A program made the position numbers and the translations under genes. Of a DNA stretch of 64,000 nucleotides, positions 29,683 through 56,066 are shown in pieces (position 1 is the first letter of the stretch; every line of letters begins with the position of its first letter). Under the pieces are notes generated by a model. That model had not been told where the DNA came from and searched no databases. It worked only from the letters and a program-made list of their open reading frames with translations. Source of the DNA: Pedobacter sp. BS3 (GTDB lineage: Bacteria > Bacteroidota > Bacteroidia > Sphingobacteriales > Sphingobacteriaceae); contig NZ_VTRT01000001.1 of assembly GCF_008274585.1 (NCBI RefSeq), forward strand, positions 1,240,001 through 1,304,000, read 5' to 3'.

Positions 29683-31050
29683 TTATTTTATCTCATATTT
29701 ACAGAATAAAACACCACCTGCATTGATCTTTACCTCTTTGGGTGCAGATGAGCTGACCGTACCTAAGTTTTTATCGTTCCAGACATCCTGTAAACTTACG
29801 GCTGTGCCTTCAAATCCTAATAACGTGCTTGTAAGTTTAACGGTTACGGCTTCACCGTTGCGGTTAAAGATCCCGATCCAGCCTTTCTGAGGCATGTTTT
29901 TATTGGGAGTTTTCCATATTTCAATGTTGTTATGGTCTGAAACAAGTTTACCAACCACGCCATTTTCATTACAAGCCAGCATTTCTTTGTTGGTGAGCAG
30001 TTCAAATGTAAAATCGTCGCTGGTAGGCAGATCGCCGCCCATAAATAAAGGCGATGCGCTTAATGCCCGCATAGCCATGAACGTGTATTTTTGGTCGGCA
30101 TTAAAAAAGCTTATATGCTCACTTTGTTTAACTCCGTGTTTATTTGGATCTGGTTTAGCGGTCAGGTAGTTTTTATCGGGATTGTGCAGGCATAAATGCC
30201 CGAACGGGATCATATCCATATCTAACCAAAACCCATCATGATCGATATTGCTCCATTGCTTCCATGCTGTAAATACCCTGTCTATTCCAATCTGGTCATC
30301 CCACACATCGCGGGTTACGCGTAGCATATTGGCCTGCTTATAGGTTTGGAAATATTCGGGCCTGGAATCGCCGCCGGGCGATAAGCTCAATACAACCGGT
30401 TTCCCGGTTTTTCTTATTGCCGAAATAACCGCGTCAATTTCATCCGGATGCCCGGCAATATCATCAGCCTTTATAAAATCTATTCCCCAGCTAACCAGTA
30501 AGGCAATGTAAGAGTCGTAATATTGCTGTGCACCCGGTTTCTTCATGTTAATGCCATAATTATCATGGTTCCATTTGCATAACGAAGTGGTATCTGCAAT
30601 ATCTCTGGCCGTATATTTAGTACCCAGTACCGGCATGTTTTTTCTATACGCTATACGCGATATGCCACGCATGATATGAATGCCAAATTTTAAACCTAAG
30701 GCATGCGCCCGGTCTGCTACTGCTTTAATGCCTCCGGGAAATGTTTCTTTGTTCGGTATATACCTGCCGTAGTTATCCAGGCTCATGGTAATGATCTTTC
30801 CCTGGGCATCTTTTACTTTATTCCAGCCTGCGTCAATTACAAAGTATTCATAGCCAAACGGCTTAAGTCGTTTGGCCATTACTTCCATATTGGCAAGCAT
30901 GGCTTCCTGTGTTGGGTACATGCCGTAGCTGTCCCAGCTATTCCATCCTTTAGGCGGAACTTTGGTTTGAACGGACTGTGCCATCACGGTGTGGGAAATA
31001 AGTATTGCTACTATAGCGGTAGCTGTTAATTGGCTTATGAAATATCTCAT
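29683..31050 (-). CDS. GH27 family alpha-galactosidase / beta-L-arabinopyranosidase
   Basis: About 455 residues from the ATG at 31050, which starts a signal peptide (MRYFISQLTATAIVAILISH). An upstream ATG at 31155 only adds a tail before it. The GH27 barrel has PPKGWNSWDSYG, the strand YFVIDAGWN, nucleophile Asp in FIKADD (D196) and acid/base Asp in RVTRDVWDD (about D248). A beta-sandwich domain closes the protein. GH27 enzymes remove alpha-D-galactose or beta-L-arabinopyranose, both retaining. The arabinose pathway nearby makes the second worth testing. Periplasmic or surface location. Confidence 0.87.
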   Translation of the reverse strand: MRYFISQLTATAIVAILISHTVMAQSVQTKVPPKGWNSWDSYGMYPTQEAMLANMEVMAKRLKPFGYEYFVIDAGWNKVKDAQGKIITMSLDNYGRYIPNKETFPGGIKAVADRAHALGLKFGIHIMRGISRIAYRKNMPVLGTKYTARDIADTTSLCKWNHDNYGINMKKPGAQQYYDSYIALLVSWGIDFIKADDIAGHPDEIDAVISAIRKTGKPVVLSLSPGGDSRPEYFQTYKQANMLRVTRDVWDDQIGIDRVFTAWKQWSNIDHDGFWLDMDMIPFGHLCLHNPDKNYLTAKPDPNKHGVKQSEHISFFNADQKYTFMAMRALSASPLFMGGDLPTSDDFTFELLTNKEMLACNENGVVGKLVSDHNNIEIWKTPNKNMPQKGWIGIFNRNGEAVTVKLTSTLLGFEGTAVSLQDVWNDKNLGTVSSSAPKEVKINAGGVLFCKYEIK

Positions 31051-31096
31051 GGTTATCAGATTTACATTATTAATATAAAGCAGTATCGGTTGTGAT

Positions 31097-32146
31097 TTAA
31101 TGTTTTTGAGAATTGCTAATTGTATAATGTATAAAATTTTTAAAGGCTTTACCATTTTCCCTTAAGCTGCCATCGGCATTTTGCAGTGCAATGGCTTTTC
31201 CGTCGCCGCCATCGCCACTATACCATATTACAAAATCCATGTTCAGTTCCGAAGTTTTCTGGAGCAGGTTTGTAACAATAACCGGCGAGGGAGCTAATTG
31301 CCCTATTTCTGTAGTTATAACAGGCTTCCCGGTGCTTTTTTTCAAAAAGGCTGTGATGTCATCTAATACGTTAACGTCAGTTTTAGTTGAAATATCTGCT
31401 CCTTTCAGGCCTCTGCCGGGGGTGTACCAATGGAAATTTATATAATCCACGTCTGAGCTTTTAATGGCTTCCAGCACGCTGGTGGCAAACCGTATTTTCT
31501 CATTGTTAGAAATGATCTTTGCCAGGTTGCGTACCTTATAGTCGGGAAAGATCTTGCGGGCAAAGATATCCGCCTCATTCGTCCGGCCATGTTGTATCAT
31601 ATCCTGGTAAGTTAGCATGGCAACAAGTGCGCTGGTAATACCACCGTTGCTTACTTTTATTCCCATCTGGTGGGCAATCTCAGTGCCCGCCTTTAGCTCG
31701 TTGATATAATCCTCTGCCGTTCCGGTATGATATAACGGATTATCTTCCTCATTTTCGATAGAGACCAAAGCGGGTTTATACTTTGTTAATATTTCCCTGA
31801 CAGTTTTTTTATAGGCCGTTATATCGGTTGGAAAGGGTACAGGGCCGTTAACCGGCGCACCGGCGTTTATATTCAGTATGATTTTCAGGCCGGCTGCGGT
31901 GATAGCTTCACAGGGGATGCATTTACCGTTCCATTTATTTAACCATATCCGGGTTCGTACATAAGGTACGCCTAAGTCTTTGGCAACCCGTATGGTGGTT
32001 GCTATCCCAATGGCCTTATTTTCGGTTTTATCGGCCAGTATGCCGAAAGGATTTTTGACAGACCTGTTTTCTACGGGTTGTGGGAAACGTAATGCTGATA
32101 GCAGCATAAAGCCCGTAAGCAGGGATAATAGCATAAATTTCATCAT
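31097..32146 (-). CDS. Putative clan GH-A-like glycoside hydrolase, paralogue 1
   Basis: A 349-residue protein with an N-terminal signal anchor (MMKFMLLSLLTGFMLLSALR). No standard family is recognised, but the pattern is of a TIM barrel of clan GH-A. There is ALVSIENEEDNPLYHTG with Asn-Glu for the acid/base, and after NFHWYTPG comes PVITTEIGQL with a candidate nucleophile Glu. IWYSGDGGDGKAIALQ follows near the last strand. A close paralogue is at 56346-57470. It lies 20 bases after the AraC gene and 46 before the GH27 gene. The hydrolase role is inference from the barrel-like motif spacing; activity unknown. Confidence 0.65.
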   Translation of the reverse strand: MMKFMLLSLLTGFMLLSALRFPQPVENRSVKNPFGILADKTENKAIGIATTIRVAKDLGVPYVRTRIWLNKWNGKCIPCEAITAAGLKIILNINAGAPVNGPVPFPTDITAYKKTVREILTKYKPALVSIENEEDNPLYHTGTAEDYINELKAGTEIAHQMGIKVSNGGITSALVAMLTYQDMIQHGRTNEADIFARKIFPDYKVRNLAKIISNNEKIRFATSVLEAIKSSDVDYINFHWYTPGRGLKGADISTKTDVNVLDDITAFLKKSTGKPVITTEIGQLAPSPVIVTNLLQKTSELNMDFVIWYSGDGGDGKAIALQNADGSLRENGKAFKNFIHYTISNSQKH

Positions 32147-32166: not shown

Positions 32167-33048
32167 TTATGCCTGTTTGGTTCTGGATGACAGAACATGG
32201 TTATAATATTGCCGGTACTCGTATGGTGTTAGCTGCATCATGGTTTTAAACTGACGGTTAAAGCTTGCAATAGATTTAAATCCCGATTCAAAGCATATTT
32301 GTGAAACAGAATAATTGGTTTCAATGAGCAGCTTGCAAACATGGCTGATTTTAATCTCGTTCAGAAAAGCCGAAAAGGTTTTTTGAGCGTGCTTTTTAAA
32401 GTATTTGCAAAATGCCGGTATGCTCAGATTGGCTACTTCGGCTATTTCTTCAAGTGTAATGTCATGGCAGAAATGGTTCATAATAAACTTATACACTTTA
32501 TCAATGCGATGCGTATCGGGCGAAATAAGCTGGTGATTGTATCCTCCTTTTAGTAATGGAGATACTTCATTGGAGCAGGCCAGCTCATTCAGAATATCTA
32601 ATAAGGCCGTTACTTTTAAAAACTCGTCTGTTAATTCTGATAATTGCTTTATACGGTCGGCCAAAAGCTTGTTGACGCTTCCTGTGATATTTAACCCGCT
32701 TACCGACCTGCTTAACAGCTTTTTGATAGGCTTCATCTCCGGACGTTCAAAGAAGCCTTCACCTAAAAAATCTGCCTTGAAATGGACCTCGATAAATTCC
32801 GCGTCGGGCCCCTTAAGCTCATCGTTACGCCATAAATGAGGAGTATCCGGGCTGATTAAAGCACAATCGCCTGCCTTAAAGGTATTAATGCTGTGGCCGA
32901 TAAATTTTGATCCCTGTCCCTTAAATACATATATCAGCTCAAATGCGGGATGAAAGTGAAGCGTTTCTTCATAACAGGGAGATACGTGCCTGTTTACCGA
33001 GACTGTTACATCATCAGGCAGCAGCAGCTTTTTTAATAATAGTTTCAT
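32167..33048 (-). CDS. AraC-family transcriptional regulator, paralogue 1
   Basis: A 293-residue regulator with an N-terminal cupin sensor (CYEETLHFHPAFELIYVFKG, then SPDTPHLWRND) and a C-terminal AraC DNA-binding domain of two helix-turn-helix units (DITLEEIAEVANLSIPAFCK and NYSVSQICFESGFKS). It heads the minus operon of three hydrolase genes and faces the SusCD operon, with 469 bases of control region between. It probably senses a released oligosaccharide or sugar and activates one or both directions. The DNA-binding half is very close to that of the second AraC protein at 55218-56066. Confidence 0.9.
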   Translation of the reverse strand: MKLLLKKLLLPDDVTVSVNRHVSPCYEETLHFHPAFELIYVFKGQGSKFIGHSINTFKAGDCALISPDTPHLWRNDELKGPDAEFIEVHFKADFLGEGFFERPEMKPIKKLLSRSVSGLNITGSVNKLLADRIKQLSELTDEFLKVTALLDILNELACSNEVSPLLKGGYNHQLISPDTHRIDKVYKFIMNHFCHDITLEEIAEVANLSIPAFCKYFKKHAQKTFSAFLNEIKISHVCKLLIETNYSVSQICFESGFKSIASFNRQFKTMMQLTPYEYRQYYNHVLSSRTKQA

Positions 33049-34876: not shown

Positions 34877-37800
34877 ATGAAGTTATTTGACCTGTATCGA
34901 AAATTGCATATTAAACAAATGCTCATTATGATGTTGTTCCCGGCAATGGTATATGCGCAGCAAAATAGTATTTCGGGCACTGTTATTGATGCCAGCAGTG
35001 GGGATCGGCTCCCTGGTGTAACCGTTAAGGTAAAAGGTGCGGCAACGGGCGTTTCAACTGATAAAAATGGCAGGTTCAGCATAAATTTACCAGCCGGGCA
35101 GGCCGCCTTAGTATTTTCATTTATTGGTTATCAAACAAAAACGGTCAATGTTACGGCAGGCGGGGCAGAGCTTACCGTAAAGTTAAACACAAGCACCACC
35201 TCGTTAGATGAAGTAGTAGTTATTGGTTATGGTACGCAGAAAAAATCAGACTTAACCGGAGCCATTTCCAGTGTGAGTACTGAGGATTTGAACCGGAACC
35301 GGAGCACAGATATTCTGGGTGCGCTGAATGGAAAAGCTGCCGGGGTGCAAATATTTTCGCAATCCGGAGAGTTGGGTTCAGGATACGATATACGCATAAG
35401 AGGAGCCAGCTCGATTAATAGTTTAACAACACCCTTATATGTAATAGATGGTATTCCCTTCGATAGTTACAGCGATGAGGTTGCCGGGTCAACACAGGTG
35501 GGCTCTACTGCCCCCAACCCTCTTGCCAATATTAATCCTCAGGATATTGAATCTATAGAAATTTTAAAAGATGCTTCCGCTACGGCTATTTATGGTTCGC
35601 GGGGAGCAAATGGCGTTGTGCTGATCACTACAAAATCGGGAAAACCGGGAAAACTTACAGTAACCTATGATGGTAACCTCAGGGTTAATTCTATTACCAA
35701 ACGCTTAAGTGTACTGAGCGCCCAGGAATTTTTAGATTACCGTATTATCAGGGGCGGGGCAGATGATGAAGTAGCCCTGAAAATGGACCCCAATCAGGAT
35801 GGCATATTGGATATACCCGGTCACAACTGGCAGCAGGAAGTATATCATACATCCATTTCAAACAGTCATACCGCTACGGTAAACGGCGGCTCAAAAGACA
35901 CGCGTTTTTCGGGCAGCTTAGGATATCTTGACGACCAGGGGATTATTATCACCAACGAGAATAAACGATATAATGCCCGGTTAAGGCTGGATCAAAATCT
36001 TGGGAACAAAGTAAAAGCAGGTATCAATATTAACTTCTCCAATAATGTAATCAGAGGCGCCACAAACAGCGGCGGGGCCTGGCAGGGTGTAACCCGTACA
36101 GCGCTTTTTTCAAGACCGGTTGAAGTGAGCGGCCCCGGCGACGCATCAGACGGATTTGATACGTACATATCGCCAGTTAATAATATTACCTCGGCCCAGT
36201 TAACTTCCAATACAAGCCGTACTATCGGAAACGCCTATCTGGATTTTAAAATCACCAAAGAACTATCGTTTAATATAACCGCGGGTGGAAACCTTTCTAA
36301 TTCAAAGGGTAAGGAATTCTACCCGGTAAATACAACCGGCGGGGCTAAAACCAACGGTTCAGCAACCATACAAAATATTAACAGCCTGAACTGGACAAAC
36401 ACCAATCAGCTTACCTACAAAAAACAATGGGGTAAAAACACGCTGAATGTAACCGGGGTTTTTGAAGTCTCCTCTTACCGGTTTGATAAAAGCCTGGTTT
36501 CAGCGCAAAATTTTCCGTTTCCGGCTAACGGGGTAGATAATATTGGTTCTGCCGTTACCATTTCAGAAAACTCCAGTTATAAATTTATTAACAACAGGTA
36601 TTCTTTTTTAGCACGGGCTTTTTATAACTTACAGGATAAGTACTTATTTACAGCAAGCATTCGCGATGATGCCTCAGATAAATTTGGCGCTAACCATAAA
36701 CACGGCTATTTCCCAAGCGGCGCTTTCGCATGGCGGTTAATTAATGAGGGTTTCATGAAAAATCAGCATACTTTCAGCGATATGAAACTGCGGGTAAGCT
36801 ATGGCGTTACCGGTAACGATAAGATAAGTCCGTACAATTACCTGGCTTTGCTGGAAGGTGCTTATTATGGCGGAAGCAATGGCAGTAACAATATTGGCCT
36901 GGCTCCGGCTAATCCGGGAAATCCCGATCTGCAGTGGGAGCAAAATGTTGAGTTTGATGCCGGTATAGACATTGGCATGTTTAAGGGCCGCGTTAATATC
37001 ACGGCAGATTATTATAGCAAAAAGGTAAATAAACAGCTTATCAATACGCCGCTTGCAACCCAGGGAGGTTACTATTCGCAATTTAAAAACCTAGGCCGTA
37101 TTGATAACCGGGGTTTTGAATTAGCGGTAAGTACAAAAAATATTAAAAAAAAGAATTTCACCTGGAATACCAGCCTGAACCTGAGTTTTGACAGAAGCGA
37201 AGTTAAAAATCTGGGCGGCGCCAACATGATACCGGTAACGTTTGGCGGAGACATTTCTTTACTGGGAGCCGTAATTGTAGGGCAACCATTTGGAACAGGG
37301 TATGGCTATATTAAAGATGGCGTATATCAATTAAGTGATTTTGATTACGATGGAACCACCTATACCCTTAAAGCAGGAGTACCGGAATATAGCGGAGGTA
37401 CGGTGCAACCGGGCAGTTATAAATTCAGGGATATCAGCGGCCCTGACGGAATACCGGACGGTATTGTAGATTCTTACGACCAAACGGTGATATCCAACAG
37501 TTCACCCAAATTAACAGGTGGAATAAACAACGTGTTTAGCTATAAGAACTTTGATTTTTCTTTCTTCTTACAGGGAGTTCAGGGCAGAGATGTGCTCAAT
37601 ATCATCAAACTGGATTTAACTGGATATAAGCCCAACCGGAACCTGGGAACTGATTTTTTCTATAACCGGTGGACACCGGATAATCCAACCGATACATACG
37701 GAACATGGAGCGATGCCAACGCTACGGCAAATACCAATAATACGTTTTATGTTGAAGACGCTTCCTATCTGCGCCTAAAAAACATCACCCTGGCGTATAA

Positions 37801-38002
37801 TCTTCCGAAACGGTTATTACAGCATACAAAAACATTTTCGGGGTTACGGATATATATCGCAGGCAATGACCTAGTAACCTGGACAAAATATTCAGGATAT
37901 GATCCGGAGGTTTCTCACAGGAACCAGCTCTTATCAGGGGTAGATCAACTGGTATATCCCCGGACAAAAAATATCATGTTAGGAATTACTGCAAACTTTT
38001 AA
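34877..38002 (+). CDS. SusC-like TonB-dependent outer-membrane transporter
   Basis: A 1041-residue SusC/RagA-family protein. After the signal sequence comes a carboxypeptidase D regulatory-like domain (ISGTVIDASSGDRLPGVTVK) and the TonB box region VVVIGYGTQKKSDLTGA, then a plug (IRGASSINSLTTPLYVIDGI and ILKDASATAIYGSRGANGVV), then a 22-strand barrel ending NIMLGITANF. It imports oligosaccharides across the outer membrane with TonB energy. It is followed after 12 bases by susD. It is the only SusC gene in the window. Confidence 0.96.
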   Translation: MKLFDLYRKLHIKQMLIMMLFPAMVYAQQNSISGTVIDASSGDRLPGVTVKVKGAATGVSTDKNGRFSINLPAGQAALVFSFIGYQTKTVNVTAGGAELTVKLNTSTTSLDEVVVIGYGTQKKSDLTGAISSVSTEDLNRNRSTDILGALNGKAAGVQIFSQSGELGSGYDIRIRGASSINSLTTPLYVIDGIPFDSYSDEVAGSTQVGSTAPNPLANINPQDIESIEILKDASATAIYGSRGANGVVLITTKSGKPGKLTVTYDGNLRVNSITKRLSVLSAQEFLDYRIIRGGADDEVALKMDPNQDGILDIPGHNWQQEVYHTSISNSHTATVNGGSKDTRFSGSLGYLDDQGIIITNENKRYNARLRLDQNLGNKVKAGININFSNNVIRGATNSGGAWQGVTRTALFSRPVEVSGPGDASDGFDTYISPVNNITSAQLTSNTSRTIGNAYLDFKITKELSFNITAGGNLSNSKGKEFYPVNTTGGAKTNGSATIQNINSLNWTNTNQLTYKKQWGKNTLNVTGVFEVSSYRFDKSLVSAQNFPFPANGVDNIGSAVTISENSSYKFINNRYSFLARAFYNLQDKYLFTASIRDDASDKFGANHKHGYFPSGAFAWRLINEGFMKNQHTFSDMKLRVSYGVTGNDKISPYNYLALLEGAYYGGSNGSNNIGLAPANPGNPDLQWEQNVEFDAGIDIGMFKGRVNITADYYSKKVNKQLINTPLATQGGYYSQFKNLGRIDNRGFELAVSTKNIKKKNFTWNTSLNLSFDRSEVKNLGGANMIPVTFGGDISLLGAVIVGQPFGTGYGYIKDGVYQLSDFDYDGTTYTLKAGVPEYSGGTVQPGSYKFRDISGPDGIPDGIVDSYDQTVISNSSPKLTGGINNVFSYKNFDFSFFLQGVQGRDVLNIIKLDLTGYKPNRNLGTDFFYNRWTPDNPTDTYGTWSDANATANTNNTFYVEDASYLRLKNITLAYNLPKRLLQHTKTFSGLRIYIAGNDLVTWTKYSGYDPEVSHRNQLLSGVDQLVYPRTKNIMLGITANF

Positions 38003-38014
38003 AACCATCAAGTC

Positions 38015-39670
38015 ATGATTAAGCCTATTCATATATACTCAGCGATATTTATCTTCATACTGGCAAACAGCGGTTGTAAAAAATTTATCGATACGGCACC
38101 CTATTCAACCGTATCTACAGAGCAGTTTTATAAAACGGCGGCTGACGCCGAGCTGGCACTTGCAGGATGTTATAACGTACTAAATGCCAAACAGATACAA
38201 GGCACTAACTTAGGTACGCAGGGCGGTTTATACTTTATGCAGTTGCAAAACATGCTTACAGCCGGTACAGACGAGGCTTTTGCCCGGGTTACCAGCGCAA
38301 CTAACGAAACACAGTTAGGACAACTTTCGTGGGATGCGAATACAACTTACTTCAGACAGGTTTGGTTCTATTTTTATGCCGGTATCCAGCGGTGCAACCT
38401 GTTGTTGGATCATCTCGAAAATATACCCGATATCAGCGAAGCCCGCAAAACAGAAATCAAGGGAGAAGCCAGGTTTTTACGCGGGTTCTACTTATTATAT
38501 CTTGGAATGATGTTTGGCGGGGTACCCATAAACACCACCTCTACCCCCGATTTACAAGCGCCGCGGGCTTCTGTACAGCAGGTATTCTCCCAGGTAATTG
38601 AAGACCTTCAATACGCGTATGATGTGTTACCACCCAAAGCTTCAATATATGACAGGGCAAACAAATGGTCGGCAGCCGGTTTTTTGGCAAAAGCCTACGC
38701 GTTTATGGGCAGTTGTAAACAAAATAATGTAAATAAGAACCTGGATTTTCCGTTAAATGATTTTGACTGGGTTGATATTAACGACAGCTATACCAAAGTT
38801 AAGGAGCTAACCGATAGTATTGTTACTTATAGCGGGTATAAACTAACTGAGAATTACAGTTATTTATTCAGGGAAACTACCCAAAGTTCGCAAGATGAAG
38901 AATGTTTATTTATGGCAGTAGGTAGTACAGACCCGGTTAATGGTAACGGTGTTAATATGCAAAACGGTTTTGTACCGCAGGGGGCAAACGCTACGCTGGG
39001 AGGCGGCCTGGCCCGACTTGTGCCTTTGGGCGAATTGTTTTATAAATACCATAATAAAGACCCTCGCCGAGGCAATAATCTTACCCAGAAACTGAACGCC
39101 AGTAACCCAATGGAGGTTGCAGGGGGTGCCCAGTATTATGTTCCTACCGCGGTTACAGCCAACAGTATTAAAAACAATTTCTTTTACTACGGTGGTAAAT
39201 TCAGGATGATAGATCCCGCAACCAAAACCGTTACCTTATATTTATGGACAGGTAACTATCCGATTTTACGACTGGCAGAAATTTATTTGTTGCGTGCAGA
39301 AGCCACTTACATGTTAACCAACGATGCTGCCACGGCAAGAGCCGATTTATATACTGTACGTCAGCGATCTATTGCACCAGCAGATATGAACACGGTAAAT
39401 ACTGCCTATGCAAAGTCTGATTTTATTGAAGAATTACTGGATGAACGAAGCCGGGAGCTTTGTTTTGAGGCTGTCAGGCGTTTTGATTTGGTACGTTTTG
39501 GCAGATACCAAAGTACAATAAATGCGCTAAGCACAGATAACAGCTTATCAAAGAATAACACGGAAGCATCGATTCTAAAGCAGAATTTTGCTCCCAAACA
39601 TATCTGGTTTCCCATTCCGGAACCCGAAAGAATATTAAATCCATCATTGATTCAAAATCCTAAATACTAA
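38015..39670 (+). CDS. SusD-like nutrient-binding outer-membrane lipoprotein
   Basis: A 551-residue RagB/SusD protein. The lipobox gives Cys at residue 21 (IFILANSGC). The SusD helical TPR core shows FLRGFYLLYLGMMFGGVPIN, later YPILRLAEIYLLRAEATYML, and the C-terminal FIEELLDERSRELCFE plus IWFPIPEPERILNP. It caps the SusC barrel and binds the glycan at the surface. It is 12 bases after susC and 10 before the esterase gene, forming one operon. Confidence 0.96.
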   Translation: MIKPIHIYSAIFIFILANSGCKKFIDTAPYSTVSTEQFYKTAADAELALAGCYNVLNAKQIQGTNLGTQGGLYFMQLQNMLTAGTDEAFARVTSATNETQLGQLSWDANTTYFRQVWFYFYAGIQRCNLLLDHLENIPDISEARKTEIKGEARFLRGFYLLYLGMMFGGVPINTTSTPDLQAPRASVQQVFSQVIEDLQYAYDVLPPKASIYDRANKWSAAGFLAKAYAFMGSCKQNNVNKNLDFPLNDFDWVDINDSYTKVKELTDSIVTYSGYKLTENYSYLFRETTQSSQDEECLFMAVGSTDPVNGNGVNMQNGFVPQGANATLGGGLARLVPLGELFYKYHNKDPRRGNNLTQKLNASNPMEVAGGAQYYVPTAVTANSIKNNFFYYGGKFRMIDPATKTVTLYLWTGNYPILRLAEIYLLRAEATYMLTNDAATARADLYTVRQRSIAPADMNTVNTAYAKSDFIEELLDERSRELCFEAVRRFDLVRFGRYQSTINALSTDNSLSKNNTEASILKQNFAPKHIWFPIPEPERILNPSLIQNPKY

Positions 39671-39680
39671 TACCCTGATC

Positions 39681-40673
39681 ATGAAGTATACCATGAAAAA
39701 TATAGCCTGTTATACCGGATGTTTGTTGTTCTTCCTGCTCTCCTCATTCAATACAATCACAAGCCAAGACAGCAGACAAACAGGCAATAATTATGCTTTC
39801 GATGTTGAATACGGTAAGAACGTAAATTATCAGGGTGATAACGAAAAATTGCTGATGGATATATACTGGCCCAAAACCGGTAAAAAGCAATATCCGCTGG
39901 TAGTACTGATACATGGAGGTAGTTTTGTCGGCGGAGACAAAAAGGGCTTTAGACCATCGTTAGCACAATTGGCAGATTCGGGTTTTGTAGCGGTTTCTAT
40001 AAACTATCGCTTAGGCTGGAACAGGCCCAAAGTTACAGACGGTTGTAACGCCGATCTTTCTGACTTGCCTAACGCGGTTTACAGAGCTTTTCAGGATGGA
40101 CACGCCGCTTTACGCTTTCTGGTACATCATGCGGCTCAATATCATATCGATCCAGACTGGATATTTGTTGGCGGAGCTAGTGCCGGTGGTATAATTGCCT
40201 TAAATTTAACCTATATGGATCAAAAACATGCCGATACTGAATTCGCTCCTCAGATTAAGAAGTTTGGAAAGCTTAATAATGCATCCAATGATTTAAAGGA
40301 TGTTTATAAAATTAAAGGTGTTTGTAACATGTGGGGTGGACTATCTGATTCAACCATGATTACAGCATCTAACGCGGTGCCTTCTATTTTGTTCCATGGT
40401 ACAAAAGATATGGTTGTTCCCTATGATCATGGTACCTGGCGAAGCATGTGTCCTGATACATTTCCTGTATTATATGGGTCCGCATGCATATACAGGCAGT
40501 TGAGAACATATCATCAGCCTGCCATTTTAGATCTCATTATTAACGGCAAGCATGGCCCTGTAGAGTTGTCTAAAGAAAATATCATGAGCAATACTGCCTG
40601 TTTCTTTCATCGTGTAATACGGGGTAATGCTCATAGCGGCAGTTACACCGGAGTACATACCGGGTGTATGTAA
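39681..40673 (+). CDS. Secreted alpha/beta-hydrolase esterase
   Basis: A 330-residue secreted hydrolase with a signal peptide (a second ATG at 39693 is an equally good start). The HSL/carboxylesterase-like core has the oxyanion motif VVLIHGGSFVGGDK and nucleophile elbow GGASAGG. The histidine is probably in NGKHGPVELSKE. As the last gene of the SusCD operon it probably removes acyl decorations, such as acetyl or feruloyl, from the imported glycan. That is an inference, as is its periplasmic location. Confidence 0.8.
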   Translation: MKYTMKNIACYTGCLLFFLLSSFNTITSQDSRQTGNNYAFDVEYGKNVNYQGDNEKLLMDIYWPKTGKKQYPLVVLIHGGSFVGGDKKGFRPSLAQLADSGFVAVSINYRLGWNRPKVTDGCNADLSDLPNAVYRAFQDGHAALRFLVHHAAQYHIDPDWIFVGGASAGGIIALNLTYMDQKHADTEFAPQIKKFGKLNNASNDLKDVYKIKGVCNMWGGLSDSTMITASNAVPSILFHGTKDMVVPYDHGTWRSMCPDTFPVLYGSACIYRQLRTYHQPAILDLIINGKHGPVELSKENIMSNTACFFHRVIRGNAHSGSYTGVHTGCM

Positions 40674-40723: not shown

Positions 40724-42214
40724 TTATTTATATGCCATATCACTCCAGCGTAGTTCCCTTTTAAGCTGATTTAAATTGGTATTTCGGTCAATCAATACAC
40801 ATTCAATATCTGCGATATCTGCAAAATCGTTTAGATGTTCAGATGTGAGGTTTTGGCTGAAACAGGTATGATGCGCACCACCGGCCAGGATCCAGGCGGC
40901 ACAGCCGGTCTTCATATCAGGATAAGGCTTCCACAGTACACGGGCCACAGGGAGTTTCGGCAGTTCATCTACAGGTTCTACCGCTTCTACCTCATTAACC
41001 AGCAGCCGGAAGCGATTGCCCATATCTACCAGCGAAGCATTTAAGGCAGGCCCTGCCGCAACATTGAATACCAATCTTACGGGATCGGCTTTGCCACCAA
41101 TATCCAGGGGATGTACTTCCAACGAAGGCTTACCCTTAGCAATAGAGGCATCTACTTCCAGCATGTGCGACCCAAGCACCATGGCGTTTGCCGGATCAAA
41201 ATGATAGGTATAATCCTCCATAAAGGCATTTCCGCCGGGTAAGCCACTGCCCATTACCTTCATAGCCCTTACCAGGGCAGCCGTTTTCCAGTCGCCTTCT
41301 CCGGCAAAACCATATCCCCGGGCCATTAAACGTTGTACGGCGATACCGGGGAGCTGCACCATACCGTGCAGATCCTCAAATGTATCGCTAAAGCCCTTAT
41401 AATTACCTTCACGGAGGAAGTTTCGTAAGCCTATCTCTATTCTGGCCGCTTCCCGTAATGAGTTACGCAATTTTCCATCTTTATATAATGATGGGGCAAG
41501 CGTATAGCTATCTTCATACTCAGCGATCAGCTCATTGATCTCCCGGTCATTTACCCGGTTGATTACGGCTGCCAGATCGCCAATACCATGAGTGTTTACA
41601 GAAAATCCGAATGTTATTTCGGCCTCAACCTTATCACCATCCGTTACGGCAACATAGCGCATGTTATCGCCAAAACGCACAAACCTGGCGCCCTGCCAGT
41701 CGTGCCAGCCTGCCGCTGCACGGCTCCATGCGTTGATCTGTTCCAAAACTGCAATATCCTGCCAATGCCCCACAACTATCTTACGGTTCATGCGTAACCG
41801 CGAAACCATAAACCCAAATTCACGGTCGCCATGAGCGCTCTGGTTGAGATTCATGAAATCCATATCAATAGATTGCCAGGGAATGTCGCGGTTAAACTGG
41901 GTGTGCAGGTGAAGCAAGGGTTTTTGCAGGGCAAGCAGGCCGCGTATCCACATTTTGGCCGGTGAGAAGGTGTGCATCCAGGTAATAATGCCAATGCAGC
42001 TTGCTTCGGTATTGGCCTGCTGAATGATTCCGTAAATTTCTTCGGATGTTTTTACAACCGGCTTAAAAACAATGCTTACCGGGATTTGCTTTGCATGGTG
42101 CAAAGCCTGGGCAATCTGCTGCGAGTGTGCTGCTACCTGCTTAAGGCTTTCTTCACCATAAAGATGCTGGCTTCCGGTGATAAACCAAACTTCTAATTGT
42201 TTAAGATCAATCAT
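40724..42214 (-). CDS. araA: L-arabinose isomerase
   Basis: A 496-residue AraA with the full family length. It starts [20 protein letters not shown], has [35 protein letters not shown] and the metal-binding region ending in [12 protein letters not shown]. It converts L-arabinose to L-ribulose in the cytoplasm. It lies 27 bases after araD, as the third gene of araB-araD-araA. Confidence 0.97.
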
Positions 42215-42241: not shown

Positions 42242-42940
42242 TTACTGGCCATAGTATGAGCCCGGCCCATGTTTACGTTCATAATGTTTTTTAACCAGGG
42301 TATGTTTCAACCGGGTAACCGAGGGATTTATTTGCTCGGTTAGCCAGGCCATTTTTGCAATGTTTTCGAGCACTGCGCTGTTGTACAATGCCTGCTCAAC
42401 AGTTTTCCCCCAGGTAAATGGTGCATGATTGCCAACTAATATCATTTCTGTTTCTTCATAGCTAAGCCCCCTGTCTTTCAGGCAATCCATGATCTGGAAG
42501 CCCGTCTGATATTCGTAATCCCCTTTTATCCGCTCATCAGACATGGGTGCGGCACAAGGGATATCGTTTGTATTATGGTCGGCATGGGTGGTTCCGAAAA
42601 TAGGGATATCCCGCTGTGATTGCGCCCAGGCCGTGGCATACGTAGAATGGGTATGCACTATACCGGTAATGTTCGCCCAATGTTTATACAGTACAGCGTG
42701 GGTCTTTGTGTCTGAGGAAGGCCGGAGCGTCCCTTCCACAACATTCCCCTCAAAATCAACAATGACCATGTTACCGGGCGATAGCTTATCATAAGGAATA
42801 CCACTCGGCTTAATGGCGAATACGCCCAGGTTATGGTCGGCTGCACTCACATTACCAAATGTAAAGATCACCAAACCGAGTTCCGGCAACTGCATGTTAG
42901 CCTTGTATGCCTGTTCCCTGATGTGTTTATATCGGCTCAT
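42242..42940 (-). CDS. araD: L-ribulose-5-phosphate 4-epimerase
   Basis: A 232-residue class II aldolase-fold epimerase. It shows FTFGNVSAADH, VHTHSTYATAWAQ with zinc-binding histidines, and TTHADHNTNDIPCA. It converts L-ribulose 5-phosphate to D-xylulose 5-phosphate, feeding the pentose phosphate pathway. The start overlaps the araB stop by four bases. Length and motifs are standard. Confidence 0.96.
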   Translation of the reverse strand: MSRYKHIREQAYKANMQLPELGLVIFTFGNVSAADHNLGVFAIKPSGIPYDKLSPGNMVIVDFEGNVVEGTLRPSSDTKTHAVLYKHWANITGIVHTHSTYATAWAQSQRDIPIFGTTHADHNTNDIPCAAPMSDERIKGDYEYQTGFQIMDCLKDRGLSYEETEMILVGNHAPFTWGKTVEQALYNSAVLENIAKMAWLTEQINPSVTRLKHTLVKKHYERKHGPGSYYGQ

Positions 42941-44613
42941 GACACTGTTGTTTGTGATTCAATAAAATTTCCCAATAGGTTATATTGCTGATACCGCCTG
43001 GCATAAACAGGTGCTTTACTGCTATCGGGGTAATAGGTTATTTCAAAACCGTTGCCCATTGCCTGCATGGCGTCTTCTACTTTAGGATAAATACCTGCAA
43101 CGGTAGCAGCAAACATGGCGGCTCCCAGGGCACAGGTATGCTCTGACCGATGGATACGGATGGGCATATTGATCACATCAGCCAGCATTTGCATGATAAA
43201 AGGCGATTTACGGGCCACTCCGCCCAAACCGATCAGCCCTTTTACCGGGATGCCTTGATCATGGAACCGGTCGACTATTTTTTTTGCACCAAAGCAGGTT
43301 GCTTCTACCAGGGCCCTGAATATCGCGGGAGCCTGGCTGCCTAAGTTTAATCCGCAGATAGCTCCTTTTAAAAGCTGGTTGGCATCCGGCGTACGCCGCC
43401 CGTTAAACCAGTCCAGGGCTAACTCTGCATGCTCCGTTACCGGTATCTTTTCGGCCTCTTTACTTAGCTCGGTAAGAATACGTGCACTTATTTCTTCGCT
43501 TAGCTGCCGTGACGTATCTGCAGTATACAGGTTATTTTGCAGCAGCTTTTCTACCGGCCATGCCAGTATTTTCTTAAACCAGGCATACGTATCGCCAAAG
43601 GCCGATTGCCCGGCCTCCATACCCATCATACCGGGAATAATGGAGCCATTAACCTGTCCGCAAATGCCTTTAACCAGTTTATTTTCAACTTCGTTGAGCG
43701 GAGCTACCAGCATATCACATGTCGATGTGCCCATCACCTTACTTAAATGATACGGCTCTATCTGACCGCCAACAGCTCCCATGTGCGCATCAAAGGCGCC
43801 AATGCCAACCTGTACATCCGTATGCAGTCCCAGCCTTGCCGCCCATTCGGAGCTTAATTTGCCTGCTGCCTGGTTTGCAGTATATACGTGGCTAAAAAGC
43901 CGTGACCTGAATCCTTTTAGCAAAGGATCCAGTGAGCTAAAGAATTCCTCAGGCGGTAATCCGCCAAATTGCTCTGCCCATAAAGCCTTGTGCCCGGCTG
44001 CACAAACGCTGCGTTTTATCCGGGAAGCATGGTTGCCGCCGGTCAATAAAAATGGGATCCAGTCGCAATGCTCTACCCACGAGTAGCAGACTTTTCTTAC
44101 CTGCTCATCTGTCCGTAAAATGTGCAGTAGTTTTGCCCAAAACCATTCGGAAGAGTAAATGCCGCCTGCAAACCGGAGGTAATGGGTATTGAACCGGCCT
44201 GCATGTTCGTTTATTTCTGCCGCTTCTTTTACCGAGGTGTGATCTTTCCACAGCACAAACATCGCATTGGGATTTTCCTTAAATGCATCAAGTAATGCCA
44301 GTGGCATTCCTGATTCATTAACTGCAACCGGAGTCGACCCCGTAGTAGCTACGGACAAAGCCCGAACGTTGTTAGCAATATCTTCTCCGGCCCGGGCAAT
44401 ACATTGCCTGACCGTATGTTCAAGGCTTTCAATATAATCCAGGGGATGCTGCCGGAACCGGTTTGCAGAAGGATCGCAATACAAACCTTGTTTCCAGCGG
44501 GGATAGTAACATACCGAAGCTGTTATTTCGTGCCCGTTGCCTGCATCAACGAGTATGGAACGGACAGAATCTGTACCATAATCTACACCAATAACATAAT
44601 TTTTTATCTTCAT
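42937..44613 (-). CDS. araB: Ribulokinase
   Basis: A 558-residue FGGY-family kinase. It has the ATP-binding first motif IGVDYGTDSVRSILVDA, LWKDHTSVKEA, and the FGGY-type GLIGLGGVARKSPFIMQML. It phosphorylates L-ribulose with ATP. It is the first gene of araBDA, 80 bases after the araR gene. A candidate AraR operator at 44620-44636 lies seven bases before its start. Confidence 0.96.
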   Translation of the reverse strand: MKIKNYVIGVDYGTDSVRSILVDAGNGHEITASVCYYPRWKQGLYCDPSANRFRQHPLDYIESLEHTVRQCIARAGEDIANNVRALSVATTGSTPVAVNESGMPLALLDAFKENPNAMFVLWKDHTSVKEAAEINEHAGRFNTHYLRFAGGIYSSEWFWAKLLHILRTDEQVRKVCYSWVEHCDWIPFLLTGGNHASRIKRSVCAAGHKALWAEQFGGLPPEEFFSSLDPLLKGFRSRLFSHVYTANQAAGKLSSEWAARLGLHTDVQVGIGAFDAHMGAVGGQIEPYHLSKVMGTSTCDMLVAPLNEVENKLVKGICGQVNGSIIPGMMGMEAGQSAFGDTYAWFKKILAWPVEKLLQNNLYTADTSRQLSEEISARILTELSKEAEKIPVTEHAELALDWFNGRRTPDANQLLKGAICGLNLGSQAPAIFRALVEATCFGAKKIVDRFHDQGIPVKGLIGLGGVARKSPFIMQMLADVINMPIRIHRSEHTCALGAAMFAATVAGIYPKVEDAMQAMGNGFEITYYPDSSKAPVYARRYQQYNLLGNFIESQTTVS

Positions 44614-45653: not shown

Positions 45654-47204
45654 TTACTTTTTATATCCAGGCCGGCTTCCTCCTTTTTTAATGGTTTCTA
45701 ATTCTGATTTGAGCTTGTTCATGATATCCGCATGGGTTTTACTCAGATTTTTGTCTTCGTGAATATCTGTCTTCAGATCGTATAACTGCTGCTCATGGGT
45801 AAGCCCGGTGGGGATATCTTTATTTTTCAGCCAATCGGGAGCAGGCTTGCTTACCGGATCGATGTATTTCCAGCTATTATCTCTTAAAGCCAATGTGAAC
45901 GCTTCTTCAAGCATAACCTGCCGTCCTTTTTCTGAAGTTCCTAACCATGCCGGCAAACAGTCAAAGCTATCCGGAGCTTCGTTAGGGTTTAGATCCTGGT
46001 TTACCAGCGCCGCAAGCGAAGCATACAGATCAACCTGGCTTACCAGCGCATTGCTTATCCCCGGCTTAACCTTACCCGGCCAGTACACAATGGTGGGCAT
46101 ACGCGTACCGCCTTCGTATGCACTGTACTTGCCGCCCTTATATGGGCCGGAAGGACTATGATCGCCAACCAGCTGCGCTGCATGGTCGTCATACCCATCG
46201 TCTAATACGGGGCCGTTATCGCTGGTAAAGATTACAAGCGTATTATCCTGTAAACCTAATTTTTTAAGCGTGTTCAGGGTCTCACCGGTCAGCCAATCCA
46301 TCTGGGCTATCACATCGCCGCGGGAGCCCATTGTGCTTTTACCAACAAATTTTGCGTTGGGGGCACGGGGCACGTGTATGTCTGTAAACGAGAAATATAA
46401 AAAGAACGGCTTGTCTTTATTTTCATTGAGAAAGTCTTTCACTTTTCCCAGTAATACATTCGGGATCTCTTCGTCTTTCCACAATGCTGATTTCCCTCCC
46501 GACATGTAGCCTATCCGGCTGATACCGTTGATGATGGTATTGCTATGCTGTAGGTCTCCTTTGAATTTTAATTCTTCGGGATGTTCCAGACCAGTGGGCA
46601 TATTGCCTATTTTATGATCATAGTTAACCTTGATAGGATCTTTGGGATCTAAATTCACCACTTTATGATTTTCTACAAATACGGTTGGCACCCGGTCTAA
46701 TGTGGCCGGAACCAGGAAAGAATAATCGAATCCTACCTCTAACGGGCCGGGCTTAAGCTCTCCGTTCCAATCGGGATTGCCATTGCCTAAGCCCAGATGC
46801 CATTTACCGATAACTGCTGTTGTATAGCCGGCTTTTTGCAGCATGGCGGGCAGGGTTGGCGTACCGGGCCTGATCAGCAGCGGAGCATCGCCGGGTAAAA
46901 TGGCAGCATCGTTTCTAAATGCATAGCTGCCGGTAAGCAGGGCAAACCGCGATGGAGTGCAGGTAGATGCAGAAGCGTGCGCATCTGTAAATCTGAGACC
47001 CTGCTTAGCCATTGAGTCTACATTGGGCGTTTTTACACCTTTTGCTCCATAGCAGCCTACATCGCCATAACCCAGATCATCCACATAGATGATGACGATA
47101 TTGGGCTTTGAGCTTTTAGCTGTTGATGATGATTGCTGCTGGCAAGAATAAAGTAACAGGCTGCAGCCAAAGGTTAAAATAATGATTTTGAGTTTGTCCA
47201 TCAT
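45654..47204 (-). CDS. S1 sulfatase (arylsulfatase type), lipoprotein
   Basis: A 516-residue sulfatase with a lipobox (LLYSC, Cys21). It has the metal-binding DDLGYGDVG (42-50), the maturation signature C82-T-P-S-R, whose cysteine is oxidised to formylglycine, and SDNGPVLDDG. The fold resembles GalNAc/galactose-6-sulfatase-type S1 enzymes, but subfamily was not assigned. It would remove sulfate esters from the glycan in the periplasm. Its start lies 170 bases after the end of the next upstream sulfatase gene, on the same strand. Confidence 0.92.
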   Translation of the reverse strand: MMDKLKIIILTFGCSLLLYSCQQQSSSTAKSSKPNIVIIYVDDLGYGDVGCYGAKGVKTPNVDSMAKQGLRFTDAHASASTCTPSRFALLTGSYAFRNDAAILPGDAPLLIRPGTPTLPAMLQKAGYTTAVIGKWHLGLGNGNPDWNGELKPGPLEVGFDYSFLVPATLDRVPTVFVENHKVVNLDPKDPIKVNYDHKIGNMPTGLEHPEELKFKGDLQHSNTIINGISRIGYMSGGKSALWKDEEIPNVLLGKVKDFLNENKDKPFFLYFSFTDIHVPRAPNAKFVGKSTMGSRGDVIAQMDWLTGETLNTLKKLGLQDNTLVIFTSDNGPVLDDGYDDHAAQLVGDHSPSGPYKGGKYSAYEGGTRMPTIVYWPGKVKPGISNALVSQVDLYASLAALVNQDLNPNEAPDSFDCLPAWLGTSEKGRQVMLEEAFTLALRDNSWKYIDPVSKPAPDWLKNKDIPTGLTHEQQLYDLKTDIHEDKNLSKTHADIMNKLKSELETIKKGGSRPGYKK

Positions 47205-47374: not shown

Positions 47375-49477
47375 CTACTTAGCCTGCCTGTAAAATGCCG
47401 TAACGGGAATAACTTCTTTCGTTCCTGACGGAGTTTTCCATTCTAATTTTAGCTGGGACGGGTTAGCTGATGTGCCATAGTAATACAACCTGAACGGATG
47501 CAGGCCTGCCTGTAATTTTAAGGTGCTTTCCTTAATTTCTCCCGGTTTATAGCCATAATCGGCATCTATTACTGTTGCTTCGTGCAAACGTAAATATGCT
47601 TTGCCCGGAGCGCTTAAATAAAAGGTATAATCGCCATTTTCAGGTACTTTTATAAAGCCCTGAAACATGCCTATATTTCCACCCGACGGCTTTAAGACTG
47701 CCAGATCAGGCTTGGTGCTTTTACCGCTGCCTACGGTTTTTAGCATAGTTACATCGGGCAGCCAGGGATAATTGCCATTATACACCTGCCAGGTAATACC
47801 TTTCTCTGCCCTGGCAGCCTGAACAGCCGGAATGAATGCATTATCATACGGTCTTGTGGCAGACGTATCTATGCGCCTTACCTGCAACACTTTTTCTTTC
47901 ATGGCTTTTTGCAAACCGGCCATATTGCCGTTTGCAGCCAGGTTATGTAGCTGGTGCGTATCTTTTTGAATATCAAATATCTGGAAGTCGTCGTCTGCGG
48001 ATTGTATGTTATACCGCAATCCCAGCAGGTTATCCATACGTATCATCTGCATTTGTTTACGCGGCTGGTTACGATGCTGAGGGGCAAATTCAGGATAATC
48101 CGGTGTTTTTCCCGGCTGAAAGTATTCTACATAGATCAGGCCCTTTCGTTGCTCCCCTTTACCGGTGAGTGCGGGAAGTATCGATACCCCGTCTGTATTT
48201 ACCGGAGCCGGTAAGCCGGCTGCGTCTGTAAATGTTGGCAGCCAGTCGTACGATATACTTGGATTATTGACCACCGTATGATCTGGAATGTGCTGAGGCC
48301 AGCGAACTATTACCGGCATGCGTTCTCCTCCTTCAAGCGCATCGCGTTTTATGCCGTCAAAGGGGCCAAAGCTCTCAAAAAAGTTCGGTTTAAAAGGCAC
48401 ATGAGGCTTAGGCAGATAGGCTTCATTTGAGGGGCCGTTGTCTGAGCTGAACACTACAAGGGTATTATCGTCTATTTTTAAGTCGGCTAACAGTTTAAAC
48501 AGATCACCGATGCAATCATCTATTCTGCGTACACTGGTGGCATAACGTTTATAAGTATCGGGCCAGGGAATTTCGGGTGTATCGTGGTTTTTATCGTTAT
48601 CGTACGTTGCATTTGCATAATCGGGATGTGTCCAGCTATCAATAGTGCCTGTTGCTGTATTGATCATCCGGCCTGATTTTCCTACCCATTGCACTCCGCC
48701 CTGTGCACCGCCTCCTGCCGGATAAGGGCCTGTTGGCAATTCCAATACCGCGTGAGGCGTATCATACGCCAGGTACATAAAAAAGGGCTGCCGGGCTTTA
48801 CTTTTCTCATGCTCAATGATCCATTTCTTAGCTGCCGCTGTCCATAGATCGGCCGTATAACATTTGTCTAAATCTTTACTTACTTCTTTACGGTTTTCCC
48901 AAACTTCTTTTGCGCCATCGTATAGCCCTTCTTTCGGGTAGTGCTCGTGTCCGTCTTTATGGCGCATATAACCGTAGAAGTAGTCAAACCCACGGTTTAA
49001 AGGATGGGCAGGCCATTGGGCGCCATCGGCAGACCATCTGCGATCGCCCTGTAAGCCCCATTTACCAATGGCGGCAGTGGCGTAGCCGGCTTTTTGCAAA
49101 ACGTTTCCTACGGTGTAATTATCGGCTATATCTTTATCAAACTGGTTATCTCTAACGCGGGCATGTCCCTGGCTTAGGCCGGTCAGGATAGATGAGCGGG
49201 AAGGAGCGCAAACAGGGGCGGCAGCATAGGCGTTCATTAGCATGGCTCCCTGGGCAGCCATCTTATCAAGATTGGGAGTAGACATCCAGGGTTTGCTGTG
49301 ATCATTTGCTTTTGATCGTTGATTCTGGAAGAAGACACCTACATCGCCATAGCCCAGATCATCTGTTAGTATAAAAATAATATTAGGTTTACCTGTACTA
49401 ACCTGTTTTGCCGGCTGGCTTTTAACCGTTTGACTTGCCAATAGCAAAATAATAACCAAGCATCTGATAAATTTCAT
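47375..49477 (-). CDS. S1 sulfatase with C-terminal PA14-like domain
   Basis: A 700-residue secreted protein, longer than a plain sulfatase. The signal peptide (LVIILLLASQTVKS) is followed by the sulfatase domain: TDDLGYGDVG, C90-A-P-S-R for formylglycine, and SDNGPSNEAY. The last ~130 residues resemble a PA14 carbohydrate-binding sandwich: IGMFQGFIKVPENGDYTFYL and later LKLQAGLHPFRLYYYG. The added domain could hold the enzyme on a polymer. It faces a divergent sulfatase gene with 263 bases between. Confidence 0.9.
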   Translation of the reverse strand: MKFIRCLVIILLLASQTVKSQPAKQVSTGKPNIIFILTDDLGYGDVGVFFQNQRSKANDHSKPWMSTPNLDKMAAQGAMLMNAYAAAPVCAPSRSSILTGLSQGHARVRDNQFDKDIADNYTVGNVLQKAGYATAAIGKWGLQGDRRWSADGAQWPAHPLNRGFDYFYGYMRHKDGHEHYPKEGLYDGAKEVWENRKEVSKDLDKCYTADLWTAAAKKWIIEHEKSKARQPFFMYLAYDTPHAVLELPTGPYPAGGGAQGGVQWVGKSGRMINTATGTIDSWTHPDYANATYDNDKNHDTPEIPWPDTYKRYATSVRRIDDCIGDLFKLLADLKIDDNTLVVFSSDNGPSNEAYLPKPHVPFKPNFFESFGPFDGIKRDALEGGERMPVIVRWPQHIPDHTVVNNPSISYDWLPTFTDAAGLPAPVNTDGVSILPALTGKGEQRKGLIYVEYFQPGKTPDYPEFAPQHRNQPRKQMQMIRMDNLLGLRYNIQSADDDFQIFDIQKDTHQLHNLAANGNMAGLQKAMKEKVLQVRRIDTSATRPYDNAFIPAVQAARAEKGITWQVYNGNYPWLPDVTMLKTVGSGKSTKPDLAVLKPSGGNIGMFQGFIKVPENGDYTFYLSAPGKAYLRLHEATVIDADYGYKPGEIKESTLKLQAGLHPFRLYYYGTSANPSQLKLEWKTPSGTKEVIPVTAFYRQAK

Positions 49478-51339: not shown

Positions 51340-51349
51340 ACACAATACA

Positions 51350-55217: not shown

Positions 55218-56066
55218 ATGAAATTAGTACTAAAAAAGTTGTCGTTACCTATTAATGCTTCGTTTTCAATATGGAAAGATAAGCAGCCCTGTACAGATGA
55301 AATTCCGCATTTTCACCCTGAATATGAATTTATCCATGTGTTGAAAGGGCACGGTATGCTATTGGTGGCAGATAAAATTTATCCCTTCTCTGAAGGTGAC
55401 CTGGCTTTTTTAGGATCAAACCTGCCTCATTTATGGCGTACCGATCCCTATTATAAACATAACGATGTTGAGGTATTGTTTACGCATTTTTCCGAGGATT
55501 TTTTAGGGAAGGATTTTTTTTACAGGCCGGCAATGGCTCATATCCTGCAATTACTTCGTAAGGCCGAGAAAGGTCTTGCCATTAAGGGGAAAACAAAAAA
55601 GCTGTTATCCGATAAATTCAGCGTTATGATAAAGGCACAGCCATTTTCCAGGATATTGTTTTTACTTGATGTGCTGCATTCCCTGGCCTTATCAACCGAG
55701 CTGGAAGAATTATCTGACAAAAGCCATAGCTCAACACATATAGATACTATTTTGATGGACAAAATTTATACCTACCTGAGCCATCACTTTAAAGATGACA
55801 TTAATTTAGATGAAATTGCAGAGGTAGCACATTTAAGCACTTCCGCGTTTTGTAAATATTTTAAAAAACATACTCAGAAAACATTTTCCGAGTTTTTGAA
55901 TGAAGTGAAGATCCGGCATGCCTGTAAGCTGCTTATTGAAACCGATTATTCCGTATCCCAGGTATGCTATGAATCAGGATTTAAGTCCTTAACCAATTTT
56001 AACCGGCAATTTAAAACCATTACCCAGCTAACTCCTCATGGGTATCGCAGGCAGCATTTAGAATAG
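55218..56066 (+). CDS. AraC-family transcriptional regulator, paralogue 2
   Basis: A 282-residue regulator with the same plan as the one at 32167-33048: a cupin sensor (EIPHFHPEYEFIHVLKGHG, PHLWRTD) and a C-terminal double helix-turn-helix (INLDEIAEVAHLSTSAFCKY, YSVSQVCYESGFKS). The two DNA-binding halves are nearly identical while the sensors differ more. It is the last gene after the sulfatase/GH42-like/GH36-like run and lies 186 bases from it, so it may have its own promoter. Confidence 0.9.
   Translation: MKLVLKKLSLPINASFSIWKDKQPCTDEIPHFHPEYEFIHVLKGHGMLLVADKIYPFSEGDLAFLGSNLPHLWRTDPYYKHNDVEVLFTHFSEDFLGKDFFYRPAMAHILQLLRKAEKGLAIKGKTKKLLSDKFSVMIKAQPFSRILFLLDVLHSLALSTELEELSDKSHSSTHIDTILMDKIYTYLSHHFKDDINLDEIAEVAHLSTSAFCKYFKKHTQKTFSEFLNEVKIRHACKLLIETDYSVSQVCYESGFKSLTNFNRQFKTITQLTPHGYRRQHLE

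Follow-up and report, generated by a model that had tools for sequence, protein, structure and literature searches.

Two related proteins of Pedobacter sp. BS3, P0001 and P0002, are probably secreted retaining glycosidases of clan GH-A, which would form a family of their own and act in a PUL for a sulfated, L-arabinose-containing glycan. Both genes lie in the window, i.e., the whole stretch of 64,000 nucleotides that was analysed (Table 1). Their reading frames were recovered where the sequence-only reading had placed them, and the strand, which that reading had left out, is minus for both, the plus-strand frames there being broken by stops. The start of P0002 is the ATG at 57470, with an in-frame TTG upstream at 57509. 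The IENEE, NFHWY, EIGQL and WYSG motifs are indeed present in both translations and in the same order, and BLASTP found 122 of 323 aligned positions identical (38%) with an E value of 3e-64, which ruled out chance similarity of the two proteins. By eye, the N-terminus of P0002, MRVKKILPHFFIAIVAITAMGC, holds a plausible lipobox (ITAMGC) and that of P0001 is a plain hydrophobic signal segment, in agreement with the earlier description of one lipoprotein and one protein with a plain signal. P0001 and P0002 were the only two copies of the family found in searches of their own genome.

Table 1. Features of the P0001/P0002 locus (positions of the window)
Feature	Coordinates	Strand	Remarks
GH43-like enzyme, downstream of P0001	28441..29631	-	
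GH27-like enzyme	29683..31155	-	nearest solved structure GH27 beta-L-arabinopyranosidase 4nx0, E 2e-81; real start probably ATG 31050
P0001, clan GH-A-like glycosidase, 349 aa	31097..32146	-	plain signal segment; predicted acid/base E133, nucleophile E280
AraC-type regulator with cupin domain	32167..33048	-	20 bases upstream of P0001, same strand
SusC-like TonB-dependent transporter	34877..38002	+	
SusD-like glycan-binding lipoprotein	38015..39670	+	
Alpha/beta-hydrolase esterase	39681..40673	+	BD-FAE match
L-arabinose isomerase (araA)	40724..42214	-	
L-ribulose-5-phosphate 4-epimerase (araD)	42242..42940	-	
Ribulokinase (araB)	42937..44613	-	
Sulfatase	45654..47204	-	CTPSR formylglycine motif
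Sulfatase with PA14 domain	47375..49477	-	CAPSR motif
Sulfatase	49741..51339	+	CAPSR motif
Secreted protein, 598 aa	51332..53128	+	weak GH42/GH10 similarity
GH36-like (Melibiase) enzyme	53139..55031	+	
Second AraC/cupin regulator	55218..56066	+	adjoins P0002, convergent
P0002, second family member, other lineage, 374 aa	56346..57470	-	likely lipoprotein; predicted acid/base E150, nucleophile E309
Sulfatase	57986..59704	+	CCPSR motif
GH2-like enzyme	59744..61972	+	
Sulfatase-like protein	62171..63691	+	arylsulfatase models below cut-offs; CGPSR motif

The AlphaFold2 models of both proteins are (beta/alpha)8 barrels with the same strand order, with pLDDT 93.1 and pTM 0.88 for P0001 (32-row alignment) and pLDDT 90.0 and pTM 0.85 for P0002 (35-row alignment). 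The barrel strands of P0001 were predicted at residues 34-38, 62-68, 88-94, 127-130, 164-167, 235-242, 276-283 and 306-310. In clan GH-A the acid/base glutamate follows an asparagine at the end of strand 4, and Asn-Glu-Pro is the usual motif. N132-E133 of P0001 is located just after strand 4 and E280 within strand 7, and the equivalents in P0002 are N149-E150 after strand 4 and E309 on strand 7. The predicted barrel together with this Glu pair supports the reading of both proteins as clan GH-A-like hydrolases, in which Glu133/Glu150 would serve as the acid/base and Glu280/Glu309 as the nucleophile; a covalent glycosyl-enzyme intermediate would be formed and then hydrolysed with retention of configuration. 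The Asn-Glu and the later Glu, both pointed out in the sequence-only reading, are highly conserved among 49 aligned family sequences (32 of alignment A2 and 17 later ORFs, three of which are incomplete; P0001 and P0002 included): E133 is found in all 48 non-gap rows, N132 in 47 of 48 and E280 in 47 of 48, and D234, N237 and H239 are invariant (49/49). The sole deviation at E280 is an alanine in one of two tandem copies in a Caulobacteraceae MAG (L030, 4685-5866 and 5863-6906), where the first copy carries Ala at the nucleophile position and its neighbour is intact. Residue 134 is Pro in five copies of the genomes G839 and G757, which gives Asn-Glu-Pro, and the copies of the genome G847 are without the HWY motif.

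When the predicted structures were compared with the PDB by Foldseek, a check proposed in the sequence-only reading, PslG ranked first for both models, with E values of 1.4e-10 (P0001) and 2.3e-9 (P0002) and TM scores on the query of 0.57 and 0.54, respectively. For P0001, GH53 chains were nearly level with PslG (2.3e-10) and were followed by GH30, GH5 and GH128; for P0002, ranks 1-6 were occupied by PslG chains, 5z3k and a GH39 enzyme, and GH53 appeared from rank 11. The best chain by VIA-align was 5z3k for both models, with Z 22.4, rmsd 3.1 and 262 aligned residues for P0001 and Z 22.6, rmsd 3.2 and 264 aligned residues for P0002. Z exceeded 20 in the best 50 rows for each model, many GH1 chains were tied within 1 of 5z3k and the lists consisted mostly of GH1 enzymes; these GH1 rows were taken to show a tie on the shared barrel rather than kinship with GH1. 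PslG and CmGH1, which we take 5z3k to be from its title, both belong to GH39 (PMC6933502). CmGH1 carries Gln and Tyr where other GH39 enzymes carry the two Glu (PMC6933502), so the fold rank by itself says nothing of activity.

Searches against curated models agree with the earlier statement that the proteins cannot be placed in a known GH family. Neither P0001 nor P0002 reached the cut-off of any Pfam or NCBIfam model, and nothing close was found in NCBIfam. P0001 scored 13.4 bits against PF11790 Glyco_hydro_cc (cut-off 21) and 13.9 bits against PF05378 (cut-off 25.2), and P0002 matched only PF03978 (12 bits, cut-off 27). Over 32 members of the family, 17 Pfam families were matched at E <= 0.1, with PF11790 in 16 members (best 2.8e-5) and PF00150 (GH5) in four (best 0.0014); L013 and L095, scanned singly, scored 16.7 and 15.4 bits against the PF00150 cut-off of 23.5 bits, and P0001 and P0002 did not match this model. 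The 12 NCBIfam families found over the 32 members were matched by one member each (best E 0.0048). Single-sequence searches of the PDB gave chance-level matches for P0001, including 6uax (GH128) at E 1.1, and no match for P0002. The 32-row profile retrieved 6uax at E 5.6e-4 and the GH53 galactanase 6gpa at E 0.03, and E280 falls on a Glu of either structure in these alignments.

The profile comparisons by hhalign were based on small sets, i.e., GH53 (15 of 18 loci), GH39 (7 of 13), GH5 (20 of 25, one a 135-aa fragment), GH128 (3 of 4), a group of lipoproteins with a GxNGHPL motif (10, chosen by eye) and the family itself (31 of 32, the incomplete L029 being left out). The Bacteroidota half of the family matched the other half with probability 100 and an E value of 1.9e-85. 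The family as a whole matched GH39 at 3.1e-6, GH53 at 1.3e-5, GH128 at 6.6e-4 and GH5 at 3.2e-3, and the six comparisons among these four known families ranged from 0.035 to 3.3e-7. By these profiles the family appears about as distant from each known family as these are from one another. N132-E133 aligned with the Asn-Glu, and E280 with the second Glu, of the GH53, GH39 and GxNGHPL sets. Judged against Pfam, NCBIfam, profiles and models, the family of P0001 and P0002 looks like a separate one near GH39 and GH53, because its profile distances are of the between-family kind, PF01229 is not matched and the models lack a C-terminal beta-sandwich.

It is nevertheless conceivable, if somewhat unlikely, that both proteins belong to GH39 as distant members not labelled as such, or to some other numbered CAZy family that lacks a Pfam model; nothing would then be new at the family level. 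GH39, which includes PslG, CmGH1, beta-xylosidases and the AAfase/GAfase enzymes, has the same barrel, in which Asn-Glu follows strand 4 and a Glu lies on strand 7; GH39-type chains come first by fold for both models, and the strand-4 loop of P0001, NEEDNPLYHTGTAEDY, aligns without gaps to NEPNLNYFWAGSQEEY of the GH39 set. GH39 is also diverse, as PslG and GH39wh2 share only 17% and 13% identity with CmGH1 (PMC6933502). However, no match to PF01229 (GH39) was obtained for P0001 and P0002 at E <= 1 or for the 32 members at E <= 0.1, and the profile E value of 3.1e-6 falls inside the range seen between known families. The models of both proteins end with the last barrel helix, whereas the solved GH39 structures have a C-terminal beta-sandwich in common (PMC6933502). 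GH53 endo-beta-1,4-galactanases likewise have the clan layout, and the family profile also matches a GH53-like ORF of the genome G029 (E 1.3e-6), but PF07745 (GH53) was matched by neither P0001, P0002 nor the 32 members scanned, and the profile E value lies within the between-family range. GH128/PF11790 shares the strand 6-7 region, which carries HWY and the nucleophile Glu and is the part matched in P0001 and in six of ten relatives scanned singly; the match spans only part of the profile, P0002 gave none, and L013 (24.2 bits) was the only one of the ten relatives, and of 12 proteins scanned singly in all, to reach the cut-off. GH39 is slightly ahead of GH53 as the nearest numbered family by fold and profile, but this order is not firm because GH39, GH53 and the GxNGHPL group are all close by profile.

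The GxNGHPL lipoproteins of related Bacteroidota showed the highest profile similarity to the family among the groups compared (1.3e-8). They have the same Glu layout but differ in the N-terminal motif and loops, and the group matches the GH53 set (9.6e-13) and the GH128 set (1.2e-10) better than it matches the family of P0001 and P0002; its four comparisons with the known families ranged from 0.022 to 9.6e-13. The group comprises the central ORFs of L040, L041, L042, L043, L044, L052, L053, L054, L055 and L056, which are secreted proteins or lipoproteins in which a G-x-NGHPL-like or comparable stretch close to the N-terminus is accompanied by GNE or NNE and by HWY...W(F/I)TE. Their PF11790 matches are partial only, and they are possibly another unnamed family.

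P0001 and P0002 are two separate lineages in one locus. The sequence-only reading had called them duplicated; two members do stand in the one locus, but they are not each other's closest relatives. In a tree built from 24 of the 32 A2 rows and 10 later ORFs (34 rows in all), P0001 pairs with a protein of G012, a genome of the same taxonomic family (support 95/92), and P0002 pairs with the incomplete sequence L029 (support 90/92). Forcing P0001 and P0002 as sisters costs 37 log units, and local duplication was rejected by the AU test (p 0.00487). An earlier 35-row tree, which included one protein from outside the family (L005 ORF 1), had left P0001, P0002 and P0003 unresolved. The AraC regulators next to P0001 and P0002 are 50% identical to each other. 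Two copies in one PUL can thus be separately inherited lineages instead of a duplication, which gives reason to expect different specificities, and the two proteins would probably differ in substrate or in site. L029, the record of which is titled Neisseriaceae, groups with P0002 among Bacteroidota sequences and is possibly a misbinned contig.

The family gene is rare and patchy in the Bacteroidota sampled, as low match counts across the genome sets show. Within its own taxonomic family, 4 of 201 genomes had a match at E <= 0.001, of which the own genome and G012 contain members and the other two, being weak, were not counted. Matches were found in three of 395 genomes of a phylum sample, two of the 100 nearest relatives, two of 123 genomes in the order of G362 and 12 of 195 genomes (three weak) in the family of G217, where four genomes had 6 to 8 matches each, some of them pieces of one gene and partly in tandem. 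These sets overlap and contain some of the same genomes as a scan of the genome_contigs collection (L004/G012, L005/G805 and L009/G714). The two weak matches set aside in the own taxonomic family were that of G029, dropped as GH53-like by eye, and that of G039, an 873-aa frame in which 61 profile positions were matched.

The genome_contigs scan, in which each of 84,980 species is represented by one genome and the first three-row alignment was the query, gave 92 pattern matches, of which 29 encode a relative at 28 distinct loci; this is an undercount because one of two short peptides was required. By record title the relatives come from Bacteroidetes, Acidobacteria, Nitrospirae, Thermomicrobiaceae, Chloroflexota, Armatimonadota, Planctomycetota, Lentisphaerae, Omnitrophota and Proteobacteria as well as the candidate phyla Collierbacteria, WWE3 and Gottesmanbacteria. 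MAGs make up nearly all of these records, and misbinned ones may be among them. P0001 had no match in the plasmid collection, and of seven pattern stretches in viral contigs none codes for a relative. If confirmed, the family would be one more in a much-studied glycosidase clan, and a catalytic pair would be proposed for proteins under 13 phylum-level record labels that have no curated Pfam or NCBIfam model of their own. In G847 (L093 and L094), three family ORFs have SprB-type C-terminal repeats, one of them below the Pfam cut-off; in two of the three these are joined by PKD-like repeats and a T9SS sorting domain, and the third runs off the contig.

The gene context points to the glycan. The AraC regulator, P0001 and the GH27-like and GH43-like genes stand in a row on the minus strand, and five sulfatases are found within about 18 kb, all of them with a formylglycine motif of the form CxPSR. 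The SusCD pair, araABD, the kinship of the GH27-like enzyme to a beta-L-arabinopyranosidase and the five sulfatases suggest that the locus serves a sulfated glycan with L-arabinopyranose, and P0001 and P0002 would act as parts of an inducible PUL. Clan GH-A enzymes cleave equatorial linkages with retention, and the linkage cut by P0001 and P0002 would probably be that of beta-D-Gal, beta-D-Xyl, alpha-L-Araf or the stereochemically similar beta-D-Galf. beta-L-Arap has the configuration of alpha-D-Gal (PMC7550628). For these two reasons the backbone would be left to GH27 and GH36, and P0001 and P0002 would target side chains or a galactan part. The sulfatases would strip sulfate, the GH27 and GH36 enzymes would take beta-L-arabinopyranose or alpha-galactose units, and AraA, AraB and AraD would metabolise the released L-arabinose.

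Candidate glycans of this kind are described in green algae. In marine species the backbone is 4-linked beta-L-arabinopyranose with branches of beta-D-xylopyranose or beta-D-galactofuranose, and the freshwater Cladophora surera has a sulfated polysaccharide similar to that of the marine species (PMC5694217), with Galf in traces only (PMC7550628); Codium has a 3-linked sulfated beta-L-arabinopyranan and galactans (PMC7550628). The fullest form of our proposal, that a new GH-A family extends from Bacteroidota to candidate phyla and that two of its lineages, each beside a related AraC regulator, were joined in one locus that dismantles a sulfated pyranosic arabinan (xylogalactoarabinan) of the kind made by green algae, is speculative and rather doubtful as a whole. 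In the open-licence PMC literature we found no report of the P0001/P0002 family, nor of a glycosidase for sulfated arabinan or its branches. The role proposed for P0001 and P0002, if confirmed, would suggest a route, open to testing, by which sulfated arabinose polymers are broken down.

Both copies might instead act on a plant-type arabinogalactan protein (AGP) side chain, like the bifidobacterial GH39 GAfase/AAfase, and not on an algal sulfated arabinan, which we consider possible but not probable. The GH39 AAfase, which frees beta-L-Arap-(1->3)-L-Ara from AGP and sits beside a predicted GH36 beta-L-arabinopyranosidase (PMC10688797), is a parallel to the proposed side-chain role of P0001 and P0002, and the window locus likewise has GH27 and GH36-like enzymes and araA/B/D. 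Bacteroides plebeius uses sulfated AGP with the help of a sulfatase (PMC8406133). However, five sulfatases seem many for a lightly sulfated AGP, the own genome has no GH53 match, and no GH16 was found among the window genes scanned, all of which lie beyond the first 24 kb.

For the context elsewhere, 19 regions that contain a family gene were fetched from 12 other genomes and searched by BLAST with window proteins as baits, which other PUL genes would escape. Sulfatase-like genes were near the family gene in two regions, L097 and L093, the latter in G847 with two such ORFs between two family members. Long SusC-like matches occurred in five (L085, L089, L099, L100 and L103), and that of L088 covered 112 aa only. 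Clustering of 330 ORFs from the window and the loci, six of which were not included, yielded no neighbour family that recurs in more than four loci; relatives from genome_contigs often stand alone among the loci listed, and by record titles the gene is also carried by phyla not known for PULs. As the family gene is seldom in such a locus elsewhere, the substrate is read mainly from the locus of this window. It is quite improbable that the family processes exopolysaccharides like PslG, is not generally catabolic and stands in this PUL by chance gene order, since the best Foldseek match to PslG and the lack of a widely conserved neighbour are set against the position of P0001 20 bases behind AraC and about 46 bases ahead of the GH27-GH43 pair on the same strand (if GH27 starts at 31050), the fact that two members share one locus with sulfatases, and the members elsewhere that lie by sulfatase-like ORFs (L093) or directly behind SusCD (L100).

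Two further observations concern the glycan locus proposed here. The protein encoded at 51332-53128, between a sulfatase and the GH36-like gene, is a further unassigned glycosidase candidate. Just past the right end of the window (L104:25-4973) are a SusC/SusD-like pair and a relative of the 431-aa protein encoded at 33518-34813; the PUL may extend past the window because this pair lies directly beyond its end.
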